Shown here: one piece after another, positions 45,109 to 52,750 of the stretch
How the letters are laid out: each line of letters starts with the position of its first letter
How positions within the stretch are numbered: the stretch's first letter is position 1
Source of the DNA: Gossypium raimondii
Lineage: Eukaryota; Streptophyta; Magnoliopsida; Malvales; Malvaceae
DNA: 64,000 nucleotides
Assembly (NCBI RefSeq): GCF_025698545.1
Contig: NC_068570.1
Span: 1,736,001 to 1,800,000 of the forward strand
Direction: 5' to 3'
The notes under the pieces: model-generated
What the model was told of the DNA's origin: nothing
Database searches by the model: none
The model's input: only the letters and a program-made list of their open reading frames with translations
Translations under genes and position numbers: made by a program

Positions 45109-46329
45109 TCAATAATACCCATCTTCCTCAAAAATCATTTCATCTTCACTACCATCCAACAAGTAATCTTCATCACCAACTTCCTCAATATCCCATTCAT
45201 CCTCATCTTCTGAAAACACCGAAATCATCATGCCACCGTACTCATTCCTCCCTACTAAAAGCTCATTCGCAACACCATCCAATTCCCCGATACTAATGTT
45301 CTCACCATCGAATTCCGAAACTGAAAACAACCCATCATCACTACTCATTCTCTTCCTCTTGGGCACCAAATCTTTCTCTGAAACCTCCCCATTTTCTACC
45401 TCAACCCAAGACACCCATAAATCAGCATGTCTACCTAAACCCCTATCCCAATCACCTACAACCACAGTCCCTAAATCTGCTTCCCTTGCTCTCCTCAACA
45501 TCTCCACAAAATCCTTATCATCAGAAACTAAAAACAACCAATCAATCCCTCTACTCATTGAATGTTGCATTTGTCTTTTCAATGCCCAATCCGCTGCTTG
45601 GGGCTTATCCTCCACGGTTTTAACATAAACCCCAGCTCTCCTTAGCTCACTAGCTAAACCATAACCAATCTTAGGCTTAATTATACTCCTAGCAGCTTCA
45701 TTGTACTTATGGTTCCCACTTATAAACCTTTCTTTAAACCGTTGACGTTTCTTACCCTTCAATGATTTCATCCTGTTCAACTTCTTTTGCCGTTCCCTTT
45801 CGTGTAATTGCTTGAAATGTTTCTTCAAATCAAGATTCGTTTTACATTTCCGGCCACAAACGCCGCAAATGTACGGTTCGTCCGGCTTCACAATCCCTTT
45901 CCGTTCGAGGATGTCGAGGCTCCTCCTTTCCCGTCGTTCTTGAAGGACCCATTGAGGCAAATGAACGAACGCGTGGCGGTTAGCGTAAGCCGACATATCG
46001 ACGACTTCACCGAACTTCTCGGCGACCCTTTTCAACGCCAACGCCGCTTCGTACGGCGGCCCTCGCGGCGGTTTGTTGTCGAGGTCCCATAAAACAACGA
46101 CTTTCTTCTGTTTGGGTGCGTAAACGCCTTGCTTGTTCCTCACCATGTCGATTTCAACGGCGTTGGCTTCGGCTTTGACGGTGAGACGACATCGGGTCGG
46201 TGAGGATTTGGATTTAAAGGGTGGGGCGGAAATGGGAGAGAGGGAAAAGGAAAAGGGAAGCTCTGGTTTTGTTGGGAAAAAGGTGGGGTTTACGTGAAGG
46301 GATTTCAGGGAATTGCAGAGAGAACTCAT
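45109..46329 (-). CDS. NYN (PIN-like) domain protein with C2H2 zinc finger, plastid-type N-terminus
   Basis: 406 residues, single exon, ATG at 46329. The first ~50 residues are Ser/Pro/Lys-rich and poor in acidic residues, like a chloroplast transit peptide. A metal-dependent nuclease-like (NYN/PIN) fold is suggested by VVVLWDLDNKPPRG at 77-90 (Asp 82, Asp 84) and DWLFLVSDDKDF at 263-274, the acidic signature of the fold. Between them is a C2H2 finger with Cys 155, Cys 158, His 171, His 176, followed by a strongly basic stretch (about 176-203), suited to RNA binding. The C-terminus is very acidic. Related plant proteins are annotated as putative endonucleases. An RNA-processing role in plastids is inference. 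Long opposite-strand frames across this gene are shadows. Confidence 0.9.
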   Translation of the reverse strand: MSSLCNSLKSLHVNPTFFPTKPELPFSFSLSPISAPPFKSKSSPTRCRLTVKAEANAVEIDMVRNKQGVYAPKQKKVVVLWDLDNKPPRGPPYEAALALKRVAEKFGEVVDMSAYANRHAFVHLPQWVLQERRERRSLDILERKGIVKPDEPYICGVCGRKCKTNLDLKKHFKQLHERERQKKLNRMKSLKGKKRQRFKERFISGNHKYNEAARSIIKPKIGYGLASELRRAGVYVKTVEDKPQAADWALKRQMQHSMSRGIDWLFLVSDDKDFVEMLRRAREADLGTVVVGDWDRGLGRHADLWVSWVEVENGEVSEKDLVPKRKRMSSDDGLFSVSEFDGENISIGELDGVANELLVGRNEYGGMMISVFSEDEDEWDIEEVGDEDYLLDGSEDEMIFEEDGYY

Positions 46330-46437
46330 TGCTTCATTTATAGGTATTGCTTTTCTTCTTCGTTTCGAATGTATGTGAAGGAGTGAATTTTTTTTTTTTT
46401 TTGGCGAAGATATTTGGATAAACAGAGCCGAAGAGTG

Positions 46438-46443
46438 TATATA
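46438..46443 (-). promoter_or_regulatory. TATA-like box of the NYN gene
   Basis: TATATA on the minus strand about 110 bp upstream of the ATG, beyond a long T run on the plus strand (46390-46402). Assigned by position. Confidence 0.4.
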
Positions 46444-46899
46444 TCAACAGCCGGAGAGAGATATAGTTGTCGTTCATCACCATGGGCCATTTTTAGACCA
46501 TTTTAAGGGGCTTTTCAATAAGTTGCAGATGCAACAAAGACGATAGTTTATGGTCCAATTGTTGGTAGATATGGGCCTATTTATTTGGAAAATCTTGAAG
46601 GTCATTAAGGGTGCGTTTGGTTCGCTGTATTGGATTAGAAGTGTATTGGATTAGAGGTGTAATAGCAAATCAACTGTTTGGTTGAATGTAATGGAATAGA
46701 GGCGTAATAGTAATCTTGTGTTTGGTTGAATGGAATAGAGGTGTAATAGCATAGTGGAAAAAACTAAAATGACTAGAATACCCTTAGCATAAATTTGTTT
46801 TGGTAAATGATTATTGTTATTGTTATTTAAATTTTAATAAGATTATTATTATCAATAATAAATATTTTAATCATATTTAAACATAATTATTATTAAATA

Positions 46900-47220
46900 T
46901 ATTATAATTAAAATATATAATTTAATAAAATTCTTAATAATTAATATTCTTATATGAATTTACTCAAATTATAATTTATGATACCATAAAAGATAATTTG
47001 AAATAATTAATATTAAATATATTTTAATTAAAATATATGATTTAATAAAATTTAAAATAATTATAACTAATAAATTATCTTATATGAATTTGTATAATTT
47101 AAAATAATTATTATTACATATAATTTAATAATAATATATAATTTCATAAAATTCTTGATAATAAATTTTCTTATATGAATTTATACAATTTAAAATAATT
47201 AATATTAAAAGAACTAAAAA
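46900..47220. repeat. AT-rich imperfect tandem repeat, three copies of ~105-120 bp
   Basis: The string ATTTAATAAAATT...CTTATATGAATTT recurs at about 46917, 47036 and 47140, each followed by a TATAATTTAAAATAATTA-like stretch. Over 85% A+T. No coding potential. Confidence 0.6.
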
Positions 47221-47708
47221 GCACGTCCGATGAATTTGGATAAATGATTGTCTAGATGCACTTGAATCAATAAATTCATTCTTGATGTAAAAACCTTTTT
47301 ATATTAATTTATAAAACTTAAAATTTCAAAATACTAATAATATAAATAACCACTTATTAAAAAATACATATAGAATGGATGAAGATAAATAGGTGTCCAA
47401 ATTCAATTGTATCTAGATAATATTCAAATAATAAACATAAAACAGAATGGAATGAAGAGGGCAGACAGTAAAAATTTTGCCATGAAAGTATGACTGCGGA
47501 TGCCTGCTAAATGAATGCATGTCTTACAAGATCCACCTTGTTTCTCAAATGATTGGATAAATTTTTCTCACACAATTATTTTCTTATCATTACAGCCTAA
47601 TCTTTCCAACCCAGATCACCGCACAAGAGAAAAAGGGGCTAAAACAACAGAAACGGTTCAGAAATTCTAGTCGAGACCAAAAGCTTGGCCATTAAATTCA
47701 CAAAGATG

Positions 47709-50335
47709 TCAATAGCCCCGGTAGTCATTCCGGATCTCATCATCGAATTTCTTTTTAAGCTCTGGATGTTTCTCAAAGTACTCGTCTGCGGTCATGGTGC
47801 TGATCTTTTGTTGTTCATAAAAAAAGATAAAAAAATTCAGCAATTGTGATTTGGAACACAACAACACACATTCCGGCATTGTTTTATTTATTACCTTAAG
47901 TTCTTGAACCTCGGCAATTTCTTTCTCCAATCGCTCAGACTCTTTCAAGGATTTCTCCTCTGCCTCTTTCAATTCTACAAGCTATAACCACAAATAAATA
48001 GCACATCATTCGAGGAAAAAACTTGGAGACAGGGTAAAAGAGAGTCAATTATCCTGTTGATTCTCACCAATTCATCAAATTTTGGTTTGTATTGAGGAGT
48101 GACGGTGTCAACAAACTTGGGGATCTCTACACCTGCAATGGAAGAGTATATAACATTTGTAACGGTGAATCCCTCAAAACTCCATCCAAACCTTATAACA
48201 AGCATGATAAATATGATTACTTCGACTGCTAGAAATTGCAGACAAGTGAGAATTGAGTAGCTAGATGTCTATATTTTCTTCATTCTACTTTGAACATAAG
48301 TATAGGAGTATCTCAAGTTTTGGTGTCCAGAAGAATCTGATCACATAATAGCATTATTGAAATGAAACATCTACGGCATTAATCTGAAATTGTTAAATGC
48401 TAATAGCATTCAACAAGTGAATTGCACATAAATAAGAATTGTATTTGCAAACAAAATAGCAGCCAACAATGTCCTCATTGGCAATTGATTTCCATTTAAC
48501 TTTCAGTGAAGTATGGGGCATGGAACTGATCTAGGAAAGATCAAGGAGATCTGGAGCTGGAAAATGATTGATAACTGTGTTACGCAAACTCGAGTGCAAG
48601 TGTCAGATCAGGCTAAATGTCCAAAATGGGTATGTTCAACTTTTTTCCAAGAATTTGTAGGGTCCTTGAAGGGTCATATCCCCATATCTATGGTCCAGAT
48701 ATAGGTTAGGCATTGATATTTCCGTAAAAAACAGTCAGAGAAATATAAAGCAATAGCAATATAAAGCAAAGGGCACAGAAATCCTCAGGAATCAGAAAGC
48801 TCAATCTGAAACTGCAAATTCCATTCTAAATACTATCACATGCTATGACCAGCAGAAGGGAGAGGAGTATCTTGGCTGAATGAACCATGCAGAAGATCAC
48901 CTGTACGGTGGAAGCAGACGATAGTTGACAATTTCAAGCACCAGAAGTGTCACCGCAGGCTTGCTCAATAAAGAAGCATTCCTCTGTGCCAAATGCTGCA
49001 AAGAAGGCATTTTAAAGAAATCCTATTATTCTATTAGCAAGTGACAATATATTTTTGTAAATCCATAAAGAGAGAATAAGGAAATCAGACTTTAGCTTTG
49101 GTCTAAATTGAAAAAATCAGCAGTCAGACAACAACTAAGCCTTCTCCCACTACATGGAGTCATCTATTGATCATAAATCATCATTGGCTCTTATATAAGT
49201 TGCCAATGGATGGTTACAATGGGTTTGGAAAGAAATTTCCAAAGTGCAATTTTCTAAATTAAATGATTTAATAAAGGGTGAATTGTTACATTTAGTCAGT
49301 TAGTTGGTTTGGATGAAAAGTAGCATGATCTTGAACAGATGTCAGGAAATCTGAAAAACAAATATTATATTGACAGATAAAGTCATTATAAGTCAAAATT
49401 TGTTTTTCCAAATTAGTAGGATGATTGACTTACTTTCAGCCAGTAGCAAGAATGAGGTTACAAGTATATTGAAAGTGGCAATTACTTCTTAAGACTTCCA
49501 TTAAAAATGAGATGGAATAACTTTTCCAATGGACAAAATTTATACCACAAATCTCGAAAACTGCATGACACTAATCCTTTACTAAGAAATCTTCTAAAAG
49601 ATAAGAAATAATAACATTAGAAGGGAAGCAAGTTACACTGAAGTGCGAACAAAATAACGAATGAGGTGCAATGAGCAACAATCTGGTGTATGTTTCAACC
49701 ATAGCAATACTAGGAACAACCTGCGTCAAACGAATCAATACCAAGCATTAGAAACAGTTTGAAAATCAGTAGTGATCCAATTGTCAAAGACCAAATAAAA
49801 ATTAATTAAGCCTACAAGAAAATAGTGATCAATTTATAAATTAGATTACATTACTCTATTCAGGATAATACCTGCCCAGCAAATAAAGATTCTTCCATTT
49901 GAAAGACCAACTTCAAATAAAGATTCATTGAAAAGCCAGATAACAGTGAAATAGGCAATGGACTAACTTCCCGCATCACCATGAATCTCTCATTGGGCTG
50001 TACATTTGCTTCAGGTAACAACTCTGTAACTCCACCAGAAGATAACCAATTCATGACCGTTTCACAAGTTGGCTGCGCCATCGTGTAGGAGACAACCCAA
50101 AACATCCCAATTGATTTATAGAGAGAATAAAAAAGGAGCTAGGGATTAGAGAGAAGAAAAAGACCTGGCTGAATTTGGTTTGTAAAGTAGAGTTAACTTC
50201 ATCAAAAGTGCGACGAAGAGTAGCGAACTCTTTGCGAGCCTCATCGGAGACCAAAAGCTTAGCCATCCCTTCCCAATCAATGTTCTTTGATGCTTTGAAC
50301 ACGACATCGACGACTTTCTTCCCCGGTCTGCTCAT
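47709..50335 (-). pseudogene. ATPQ: Mitochondrial ATP synthase subunit d gene lacking exon 2
   Basis: Exon 1 (50165-50335, MSRPGKKVVDVVFKASK...TKFSQ), exon 3 (48068-48132, VEIPKFVDTVTPQYKPKF), exon 4 (47895-47981) and exon 5 (47709-47804, ending RNDYRGY then TGA) match plant ATP synthase subunit d, a peripheral-stalk protein of the inner mitochondrial membrane. All have proper splice sites. The exon that should encode the conserved segment around an IDWxYYRKGIG motif (about 27 residues) was not found on the minus strand between exons 1 and 3. MED23 exons lie there instead. Exon 3 needs a preceding exon ending in phase 1. Exon 1 alone (171 bp), or with MED23 exon B (84 bp), C (95 bp) or both, leaves phase 0 or 2, so no simple splice keeps the frame. 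Probably non-functional unless exon 2 was missed. Confidence 0.78.
48901..50108 (-). pseudogene. MED23: Captured MED23 (Mediator subunit 23) gene fragment
   Basis: Three consecutive exons with introns kept, same strand as ATPQ: exon A to 49872 (from about 50108; MAQPTCETVMNWLSSGG... to SLFAGQ), exon B 49637-49720 (VVPSIAMVETYTRLLLIAPH..), exon C 48901-48995 (HLAQRNASLLSKP..). These match, in order, an internal stretch of the large plant Mediator subunit MED23 as I remember it. Exon A has no acceptor upstream: the MED23 sequence begins abruptly at about 50108 inside the ATPQ intron. Exon C ends at a donor site (CAG/GTGATC). The fragment is about 100 codons of a protein over 1500 residues long, so it has no independent function. 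Confidence 0.7.
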
Positions 50336-50662
50336 TTTTCTCGCACTTTCTCACTTCCCAAACGCGAGACGGTGGAGATTTGGTTCGAAGAAAACTGCTG
50401 TTGATGTTGGGAGGGAGAGGGTGGGGTGGAGCAGCAGATTTTGGCTGGGGAGGGTAAAACAGAAACGATTAGCTAATCCTTACTTTTGAAACGGATTGGC
50501 TAATCGTTGTTGAAGCAGAGAAAATGAGGAATACATCCGTGTTGTAATAGGCCTGTAATAGGCAATACATCAAACCAAACACGGGATTAAGTGGGAATTA
50601 GTGGGGCCCACGGATTAGGGGTGTATTGGCTAATCCAACACACCCAACCAAACATGCTGTAA

Positions 50663-52750
50663 GTTTTCCCTTATTCAATTGCATCAACACAACAAAGATA
50701 AAAAAAAAAAAACCCTTTGGATCAAATATTCTTCACTTGTCTTCAACATTAAATCTTGACAACTCTTGATTTAAGGCCAAGTCTCAAAGACTCTTGAAAC
50801 AAGATTAAATCTAGACTATCCTTAAATCGAATAAAATGATATATGTAGAGATTTTAATTCATAATTTTATTCCTACTCACCAACCACTGGGGCTTTGCAT
50901 TTTCTTGAGCCATTACTTTCACTTTTTTCTTTTCAAGTTGAAGTGGAAATAAAATTCCCTTTGTCATTGACAAGGCTATTTGGGAAGATAAAAGGGAAAC
51001 TGTTTGATAATTGACATCAATCAATGGTCTATTTCTAGCTTTTAGCTGCTAATTATTACTTCCCAATACCATTTTCCTTTCGTTTTAGTTAACTAAATGA
51101 TATAACTCCATTGTCATCTTCTATACTTTTGATGTGATTTGTGATTACTTTTTATTGCACATTCTTAAATATATTCACTTTTGACCCTTAAAAGTTTTAT
51201 AATTTAATCATTCATCCTAAGTTCCAATACTCCAGTCTTATTGAAATTTTTGTATGAATGAAGTGAAATGAAATTCGGGTTTATCATATACATGTATTAT
51301 TTTGAATTTCATCTTTCTACTTATGAAAATAAAGAAGTCTGTGCTTTACAAAAATTGAGAAGTTATTATAATGGTTGGTAAATATATGGACTTGAATTAT
51401 TGATTTTTTTGCAAATTTCATGCATATAAATTCTTAAAATCAACAATTTAATGGTAAAATTTAACGGTATTACCCAATTGAATTAAATACTTTCTTAATT
51501 TCCATAGAACATATTGAAAAATAAAATTCATAATTAAATCATTTTAGTTATTGCATATGAAAAGCAAAGTGTTTCTCAACATCTTTATGGTTTATCCCCT
51601 TGAATTGTGGCAATTATCTCTGGAATTATGGCCTAGACTTTTTGCCAACTATTACCAAACAAGATGATTACTCATAGTTTTTATATGTTCACTTATGAAG
51701 AATTAAGTAGCCCTCCCCCAAAAAGAACTTCAGTGGCAAGTGGGGCTTCTATAAATTGAGTTATTGGCTTTAATATGGTCACATCCACTCTAAATTTTCC
51801 TTAGTGCTTGGCTACCATTAAAAATGAAATTATATTTTTGTTTTTCTTATATTAGAATAGGATGTCTACAAAAGGTCAACATATTTATTTTTTTGGTGCT
51901 TTATTGGGTTTCCATGAATATGAAGGCCTCCCACTACTTTGGCATAATAAAATCAGAATCCCTGAAAATCACAAGTCCCCACCACTAAAATTTTTGAGTC
52001 TAGAGATCAGATAATGTCTAATGAGACAAAACTTCAACTAGAACGAAGAAAGTAAAAGTTATATGTATAATTGAGACATATTTTAGTTTCAACTATTGAT
52101 TATTTTGAATTTTTATTGAACTCAAGATTTAATGTCAATTAAAATTGTCATTCGATTGATCGAAACTAAACATATTTGATTATATTTTTATATATTTACT
52201 ATAAGGACTAAAATCAATTTTTTGAAGAATTTTAGGGATCCCCTCCCGAGATTAGACGATCCTCATTAAATACATTGCATTCATCTTCATTAAAGCACAC
52301 ACTTTTCAATGAATGTTGATTGTTCTACAGCGATATATCTTCATGCCAAGTTCTTAAGAGCTCTTTACAAACATGAAATCATTGCTTTTGCATAGAAATT
52401 CCAAGGTTTTACATGGAATTAACTCTAAGTTCGACAAATACTATAATAAAAAACCAAGTTCCTTAATTTCTTGGCACTTTTCTCAAACTTTTTCTTCAAC
52501 ATTCCCCTTTTTACTCTAGTTTCAAAGAGTCAAAAATTTGTTTTAGAGAACTAAAGATACCATGATATCAATATACTATTTCATAAATTTAAAAAAAAAT
52601 CTTAAATTTATCATTTATGAAGACAAAAATTAATTTTTGTTTTCATTTTTGCCCTTAATTATCACCTATTTTTTAATATAAATTTTTTTGTTGAAATCAA
52701 TATATTCATCCTTATGAAAAAGGGTATTTTAATAAAGAAAGATTTGTGGG
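50663..52750. other. Intergenic, no gene recognised
   Basis: AT-rich with no recognised coding or repeat structure. The last part should hold the promoter of the SPRY gene; no convincing TATA box was singled out. Confidence 0.45.

Follow-up and report, generated by a model that had tools for sequence, protein, structure and literature searches.

Host gene pieces inside plant DNA transposons are known from several systems. About a fifth of the rice Pack-MULEs carry pieces from several loci (PMC12030055), and in the maize Zm-Pack-PIF cluster #18 (Gisby and Catoni 2022) a first capture of 163 bp was followed, in a subgroup of four elements, by a second one of 58 bp (PMC8903248). In Gossypium raimondii, MIR482/2118d was captured by PIF/Harbinger elements (Shen et al., via the review PMC12030055), and a paper on a cotton transposon database counts 435 PIF-Harbinger elements, the excerpted text containing no word that begins with 'captur' (PMC5467567). 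As to the route of capture, two models have been put forward: Pack-TYPE elements of plants would gain DNA by neighbouring insertions (PMC8903248), Pack-TIRs of animals by gap filling or fork switching (PMC8277862). Here, we describe what is in all likelihood a PIF/Harbinger-type element of G. raimondii, into which pieces of two host genes, ATPQ and MED23, were taken up one after the other. It lies in a stretch of 64,000 nucleotides (NC_068570.1, positions 1,736,001-1,800,000, on the contig called C6 here; hereafter the window), whose positions serve as coordinates throughout, and it was compared with the whole genome (281 contigs, 750.8 Mb). The donors, the intermediate and the product of a two-step gene capture coexist in this one genome, from which the breakpoints and the succession of events are therefore directly readable. 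No prior report of these ATPQ/MED23 elements was found in the open-licence literature, which was searched without the gene names as queries.

The element spans 46609..50659 (4,051 bp). Its left end, GGGTGCGTTTGGTTCGCTG, begins at 46609 and is preceded by TAA, its right end, ...CCAACCAAACATGCTG, finishes at 50659 and is followed by TAA, just as an initial reading of the letters without database searches (the sequence-only reading) had described them; the same ends recur in the family copies. An inverted-repeat search paired 46615-46638 with 50630-50653 (24 bp, 88% complementary). In this search of the window the true pair stands amid much AT-rich chance pairing, and it is considered more than chance because the family copies settle that question. 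Terminal inverted repeats and a 3-bp duplication of the TWA/TNA type, the two marks of PIF/Harbinger elements, are both present. By eye, no transposase was seen between the ends among the 95 open reading frames (ORFs) of at least 30 aa that overlap 46200-51100, part of which were also run against Pfam, and a pattern scan of the window revealed no further element end between the terminal repeats of the two arms. The left arm can be aligned with family copies until about 47209 and matches at 99% in three further copies of the whole element (L032-L034); in the right arm, 50366-50460 has a match at at least 18 places without any other listed match to the query 47200-50460. We are highly confident that this is a single non-autonomous PIF/Harbinger-type (Pack-type) unit and not two miniature inverted-repeat transposable elements (MITEs) around a resident gene.

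A search with the cargo DNA (47200-50460; best 40 of 173 candidates scored) found the full ATPQ/MED23 block at at least four places, the window among them, at 95-100%. These four chimeras measure 4,051 bp in the window and 4,070, 4,040 and 4,036 bp in L032, L033 and L034, respectively; both ends were found in each, and three have TAA/TAA duplications. They are 95-99% alike, and the similarity passes the element ends by a few bases at most: in the flanks (about 100 bp on each side) the sole match between copies is one of 18 bases between the window and L034 (E 0.004). Both MED23 junctions are common to the four chimeras, up to single-base changes. At least eight other places have just both ATPQ parts and the right-arm stretch, with no listed MED23 match; the two parts are separated by about 0.6 kb at seven of the eight and by about 11 kb at C4:12.54 Mb. 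Among the listed matches there are also a place at C4:33.70 Mb, where the ATPQ parts stop at the right-arm junction, and a place on C3 with the MED23 part only (98%).

The place at C4:33.70 Mb (L039, C4:33699400-33703100) is the donor of ATPQ. It has all five exons, including exon 2, and no MED23. It matches the window at 94.0% over 47422-48764, 95.4% over 50131-50365 and 81% over 47183-47424, and the ATPQ-only copy L030 over 2.2 kb at 94.2%. The similarity ends at 50365, 30 bp before the ATG; beyond this point the window element has its right arm and the donor has unrelated sequence. A scan for element ends, with up to 8 mismatches allowed in 25, found none in L039 (3.7 kb) or in the MED23 donor locus L029 (3.9 kb). 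The full ATPQ matches Pfam Mt_ATP-synt_D; exon 1 alone gave no Pfam match. The intron following exon 4 starts with GC in the donor and with GT in the seven element copies compared. A paralogue at C1:19413584-19415462 was rejected as donor, its synonymous divergence from these seven copies being 0.48-0.63 as against 0.06-0.10 for the C4 gene. Retroposition of the ATPQ and MED23 pieces is ruled out by the introns present, and a 20-nt repeat (47673-47692 / 50247-50266, a stretch of exon 1 found again in the 3' flank) was dismissed as a capture product since the C4 donor has it.

Five of the eight ATPQ-only elements were read (L030, L035, L036, L043 and L044). All five contain exons 1-4, exon 2 among them; exon 5 is recognisable in four of them. 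Their ends belong to the same family and the duplications are equal in four of the five (TAA, TTA, TTA, TTA); in L036 the right end lacks its last bases. The junctions between the arms and ATPQ are common to all nine ATPQ elements read. One event for each shared junction is the simplest reading.

The captured MED23 piece occupies the place of ATPQ exon 2 and of portions of its two flanking introns: about 0.6 kb with exon 2 went out and 1.36 kb of MED23 came in. The sequence-only reading had seen a same-strand block of ATPQ and MED23 exons with introns; the common minus strand and the introns stand, but exon 2 is missing from the window copy and MED23 lies inside ATPQ, not beside it. What goes beyond that reading is the succession of captures: all five ATPQ exons came with the first, and exon 2 was overwritten by the second. 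The donor locus of MED23 is C3:45113000-45116900 (C3:45.11 Mb), where C3:45114247-45115633 matches 48739-50119 at 98.1%. Over 48770-50119 the differences from this donor amount to 14/1,350 in the window, 15/1,348 in L032, 47/1,321 in L033 and 58/1,323 in L034, the latter two being more distant than the window copy. The piece is presumably MED23, a name taken partly from plant MED23 sequence and partly from the C3 locus: at a distance of 0.4 kb along that locus the genome has the only Med23 match to Pfam that was found (C3:45113652-45113843, minus strand), in the sense in which the captured piece reads. The MED23 peptides alone had no match in Pfam, and MED23 had none in PDB. At one junction there is a filler of 11 bases (Table 1), the same in L032 and one A shorter in L033 and L034. 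Where ATPQ meets MED23, overlapping BLAST ends had pointed to a homology of 26 bases; it was discarded, as the alignment leaves only a few bases.

Copies of the family elsewhere were sought with 161 bases of the left end; the best 40 of 1,267 first-look candidates were scored, the window among them, and 20 of the other 39 matches (L009-L028) were read, about 10 kb each. A right end finishing in ACACCMAACCAAACAWNNNN was found in 19 of these 20, 1.6-7.9 kb from the left end (pattern of 25 with at most 7 mismatches; accepted ends had 2-5). In L010, L016 and L019 two right-end matches are close together and the outer one was used; in L027 the pattern scan of about 10 kb gave no acceptable right end. 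Since the right end was no part of the genome search, its recurrence is separate evidence. The 3 bp on both sides (TAA, TTA, TGA or TCA) are equal in 18 of the 19 delimited copies. Further copies with the same ends, which the sequence-only reading had proposed to look for, are thus at hand. The left arms of L009-L026 and L028 differ by 1.0% on average over 185 bp and the right arms by 28.7%; the uniformity of the left arms is partly a sampling effect, because the copies were picked for likeness to the left end of the window element, and end exchange between family members perhaps adds to the contrast. In L019 two family elements abut directly, with the right end of one, TTA and the left end of the next.

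Transposase-like and/or Myb/SANT-like ORFs were seen by eye in 10 of the 19 delimited copies (in L020 from part of its frames). Pfam was run on chosen ORFs of two copies only, L013 and L014, and matched DDE_Tnp_4 in both (E 1.5e-8 and 8.5e-16, respectively) and Myb_DNA-bind_3 in an L013 ORF (E 2e-6). A PIF/Harbinger-type transposase is found with these ends in the family, in frames that are interrupted by introns or breaks and from which the whole protein was not assembled. Shared ends and duplications suggest that this transposase also moved the window element. In the remaining nine delimited copies no transposase-like or Myb/SANT-like ORF was seen by eye, and in seven of these nine five distinct cargoes could be identified (Table 1). 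L024 is inserted in a retroelement, and its flanks, joined with one TAA, match at least 38 other places continuously across the junction; halves of L024 itself aside, these matches are 72-84% identical, and represent related sites, not the same site.

From these data we propose a history in four steps, which we consider very probable as a whole. In the first, an ancestral element would have gained the whole ATPQ gene between its arms, at the DNA level and from the gene now at C4:33.70 Mb, namely five exons with introns, a 30 bp 5' leader and 3' flank. In the second, this element would have moved and given rise to the at least eight ATPQ-only copies; the different places with TTA/TAA duplications are observed, the transposase of full-length relatives is the presumed mover. 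In the third, the MED23 gene at C3:45.11 Mb would have supplied the 1.36 kb that replaced about 0.6 kb with exon 2 in one copy; most likely a break inside the element was repaired with that gene copied as ectopic template. Break repair with a template switch is suggested by the position of both breakpoints inside exons, by the filler of 11 bases and by the lack of element ends at the junctions. In the fourth, the chimera would have moved on and reached four places or more; at one of these it lies 280 bp upstream of the start codon predicted for a gene of an NYN-domain protein. Copying at the DNA level, donors on two other contigs, the order of the captures and the several places reached after each are directly demonstrated by the copies.

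Some observations weigh against this history. The flanks are unequal in the family copy L015 (TTG/TTA) and in the chimera L034 (CTA left, TAA right); the empty-site evidence comes from the family copy L024 and not from the window copy; and the break-repair and template-switch route of MED23 would be drawn from the junctions alone. Furthermore, the four chimeras are not grouped in a tree of the ATPQ part, where supports are 71 at most, which could be explained by low signal or by exchange between copies. Three fixed sites separate the chimeras from the ATPQ-only copies. The left arms of the chimeras, which start GGGTGCG, differ by 1.4% on average from other family members (the sampling effect mentioned above applies) and by 5.2% from the ATPQ-only copies, and left-arm exchange between family members is possible as a third event.

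That two MITEs of the same family flank a resident ATPQ gene, which later received a MED23 fragment, was the alternative raised by the sequence-only reading. The left end is indeed very common in the genome, and 5 of the 7 first bases differ between the ends of the window element. The latter argument fails because left and right first bases are also unlike each other in further family copies, although fewer differ in some, as in the ATPQ-only copy L030 (GGGCACG vs GAGCGTG). What makes two MITEs extremely improbable is that the whole block recurs with both ends at three other places with other flanks and that a right end of the same kind accompanies the left end in nearly all copies read; ends independent of the block were not observed, as they recur as a pair around it. 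An ATPQ gene at the orthologous place in related species, without these ends or with each of them independent of it, had been named as what would contradict a single element; the ATPQ gene observed here to lack both ends, within 3.7 kb, is the donor on C4 and does not contradict it. Equally hard to credit is an entry of MED23 into a resident ATPQ gene, followed by a single capture of the fused gene. MED23 does lie wholly within ATPQ, yet exon 2 is present, with the same arm junctions, in each of the five ATPQ-only elements read, and the C4 donor also has it and lacks MED23. In favour of the four-step history, three more whole copies, the paired ends and a transposase in the family bear out the proposal of one 4.05-kb non-autonomous element with two unrelated genes.

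The joint mobilisation of two nearby elements together with the intervening DNA has been put forward in print for this superfamily (PMC8903248), and the abutting elements of L019, with a TTA in common, are in keeping with it. As the route taken here we regard it as unlikely: it predicts the order element-gene-element, whereas MED23 replaces an inner stretch of ATPQ with both cuts inside exons, no extra element end lies between the terminal repeats of the arms, and the C4 gene has none within the 3.7 kb read, although insertions could have left it. For the MED23 step, template switching is favoured over neighbouring insertion, since an internal stretch was replaced, one junction has a filler and element ends are lacking; neighbouring insertion is possible for the first capture, that of ATPQ. 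A functional new gene under selection is very unlikely as well. ATPQ exons 1, 3, 4 and 5 of the window copy are open and have splice-site dinucleotides, but exon 1 is broken in L033 and L034, and exon 3 of L033 and exons 4 and 5 of L034 fall below the recognition threshold. A divergence of 0.026 at nonsynonymous sites (Ka) and 0.65 at synonymous sites (Ks) between the C4 donor and the C1 paralogue indicates strong constraint on the resident gene. Element copies differ by few changes, in which constraint is not clearly visible (window/L032, 4 replacement and 0 synonymous; L030/L035, 3 and 3).

It is tempting to speculate that the family is a one-way cassette, in which the right arm would give promoter and leader, cargo would be kept in sense orientation only and fused ATPQ-MED23 transcripts would be made. 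All seven identified cargo kinds, ATPQ and MED23 included, have minus-strand orientation with respect to the left end (the cargo of L017 and L023 is not among them), and the transposase likewise reads away from the right arm. Capture reached just 30 bp upstream of the ATG, and ATPQ's own promoter was therefore probably left behind. Judged from the sequences, we consider such a cassette doubtful.

Table 1. Features of the window element and cargo of further family copies
Feature	Location	Strand	Content and basis
Left target-site duplication TAA	46606..46608		read in sequence; equal 3 bp in 18/19 delimited family copies
Left arm	46609..47209	+	terminal repeat GGGTGCGTTTGGTT followed by AT-rich repeats, about 120 bp
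Captured ATPQ 3' part	47210..48764	-	exons 3, 4, 5, stop and 3' flank; 94% to L039 over 47422-48764
ATPQ exon 5	47712-47804	-	ORF/protein reading
ATPQ exon 4	47895-47981	-	ORF/protein reading
ATPQ exon 3	48068-48130	-	ORF/protein reading
Captured MED23 piece	48765..50119	-	three exon stretches and introns; both cuts inside exons
Junction filler	50120..50130		11 bases, from neither donor at that place
Captured ATPQ 5' part	50131..50365	-	exon 1 and 30 bp upstream of ATG; 95% to L039
ATPQ exon 1	50165-50335	-	ORF/protein reading
Right arm	50366..50659	-	closes in terminal repeat CAGCATGTTTGGTT (read inwards); aligned family right ends
Right target-site duplication TAA	50660..50662		read in sequence
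CUE-domain cargo	L009	minus relative to left end	Pfam/ORF reading
Ribosomal S7/S5e cargo	L010; near-identical ORF in L012	minus relative to left end	Pfam/ORF reading
Universal stress protein cargo	L025; L011 similar	minus relative to left end	Pfam/ORF reading
Ribosomal L14e cargo	L021	minus relative to left end	Pfam/ORF reading
PP2A B55 cargo	L015	minus relative to left end	PDB match E 2.7e-17; no Pfam match

On its left, the element is adjoined by the frame of the NYN-domain protein (45109-46443, minus strand; Pfam E 3.6e-6). With the predicted ATG of this gene at 46329, its promoter region may be where the element has inserted. Element copies also inflate gene counts: a protein search with ATPQ exon 1 found 12 places with the whole exon or nearly so and 2 more with a part, and according to the DNA matches these 14 are the C1 paralogue, the C4 donor and 12 places in elements. 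It should be added that partial ATPQ loci without exon 1 exist at C1:33601300-33604000, C5:47523300-47526000, C193:64008 and C193:137631. The first two closely resemble the C1 paralogue (Ks 0.04-0.07) and have intron sequence in common with it; such loci are possibly cargo of another mobile family.

Compared with described systems, the element has the features of Pack-TYPE elements: no transposase seen by eye, donors elsewhere (C4 and C3) and mobilisation with the cargo, seen in four chimeras and in eight or more copies with ATPQ alone. With full PIF/Harbinger elements, which encode a DDE transposase and a Myb/SANT-like protein, the family shares the 3-bp TNA duplication, short imperfect terminal repeats and, in its full copies, both types of ORF; the window copy shows neither ORF and has host genes instead. 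Pack-MULEs are likewise non-autonomous DNA transposons with host gene pieces (PMC12030055), but they are of the Mutator type. Animal Pack-TIRs (Tan et al. 2021) resemble the present case in inter-chromosomal capture by multicopy elements, for which gap filling or template switching was proposed; they differ in occurring in animal genomes and in that many cases are single-copy and copied from nearby DNA (PMC8277862). The MIR482/2118d elements belong to the same superfamily and the same host species and also multiplied after capture; their cargo is a microRNA gene and not a protein-coding one, and the likeness is one of superfamily, not of compared ends. Closest in kind to the two-step history is Zm-Pack-PIF cluster #18, PIF-type and with a second capture from another gene; here, in contrast, the captures are measured in kilobases, a complete gene of five exons came first, and part of it gave way to the second capture. 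The case is one of a known kind of gene shuffling, unusually well documented.

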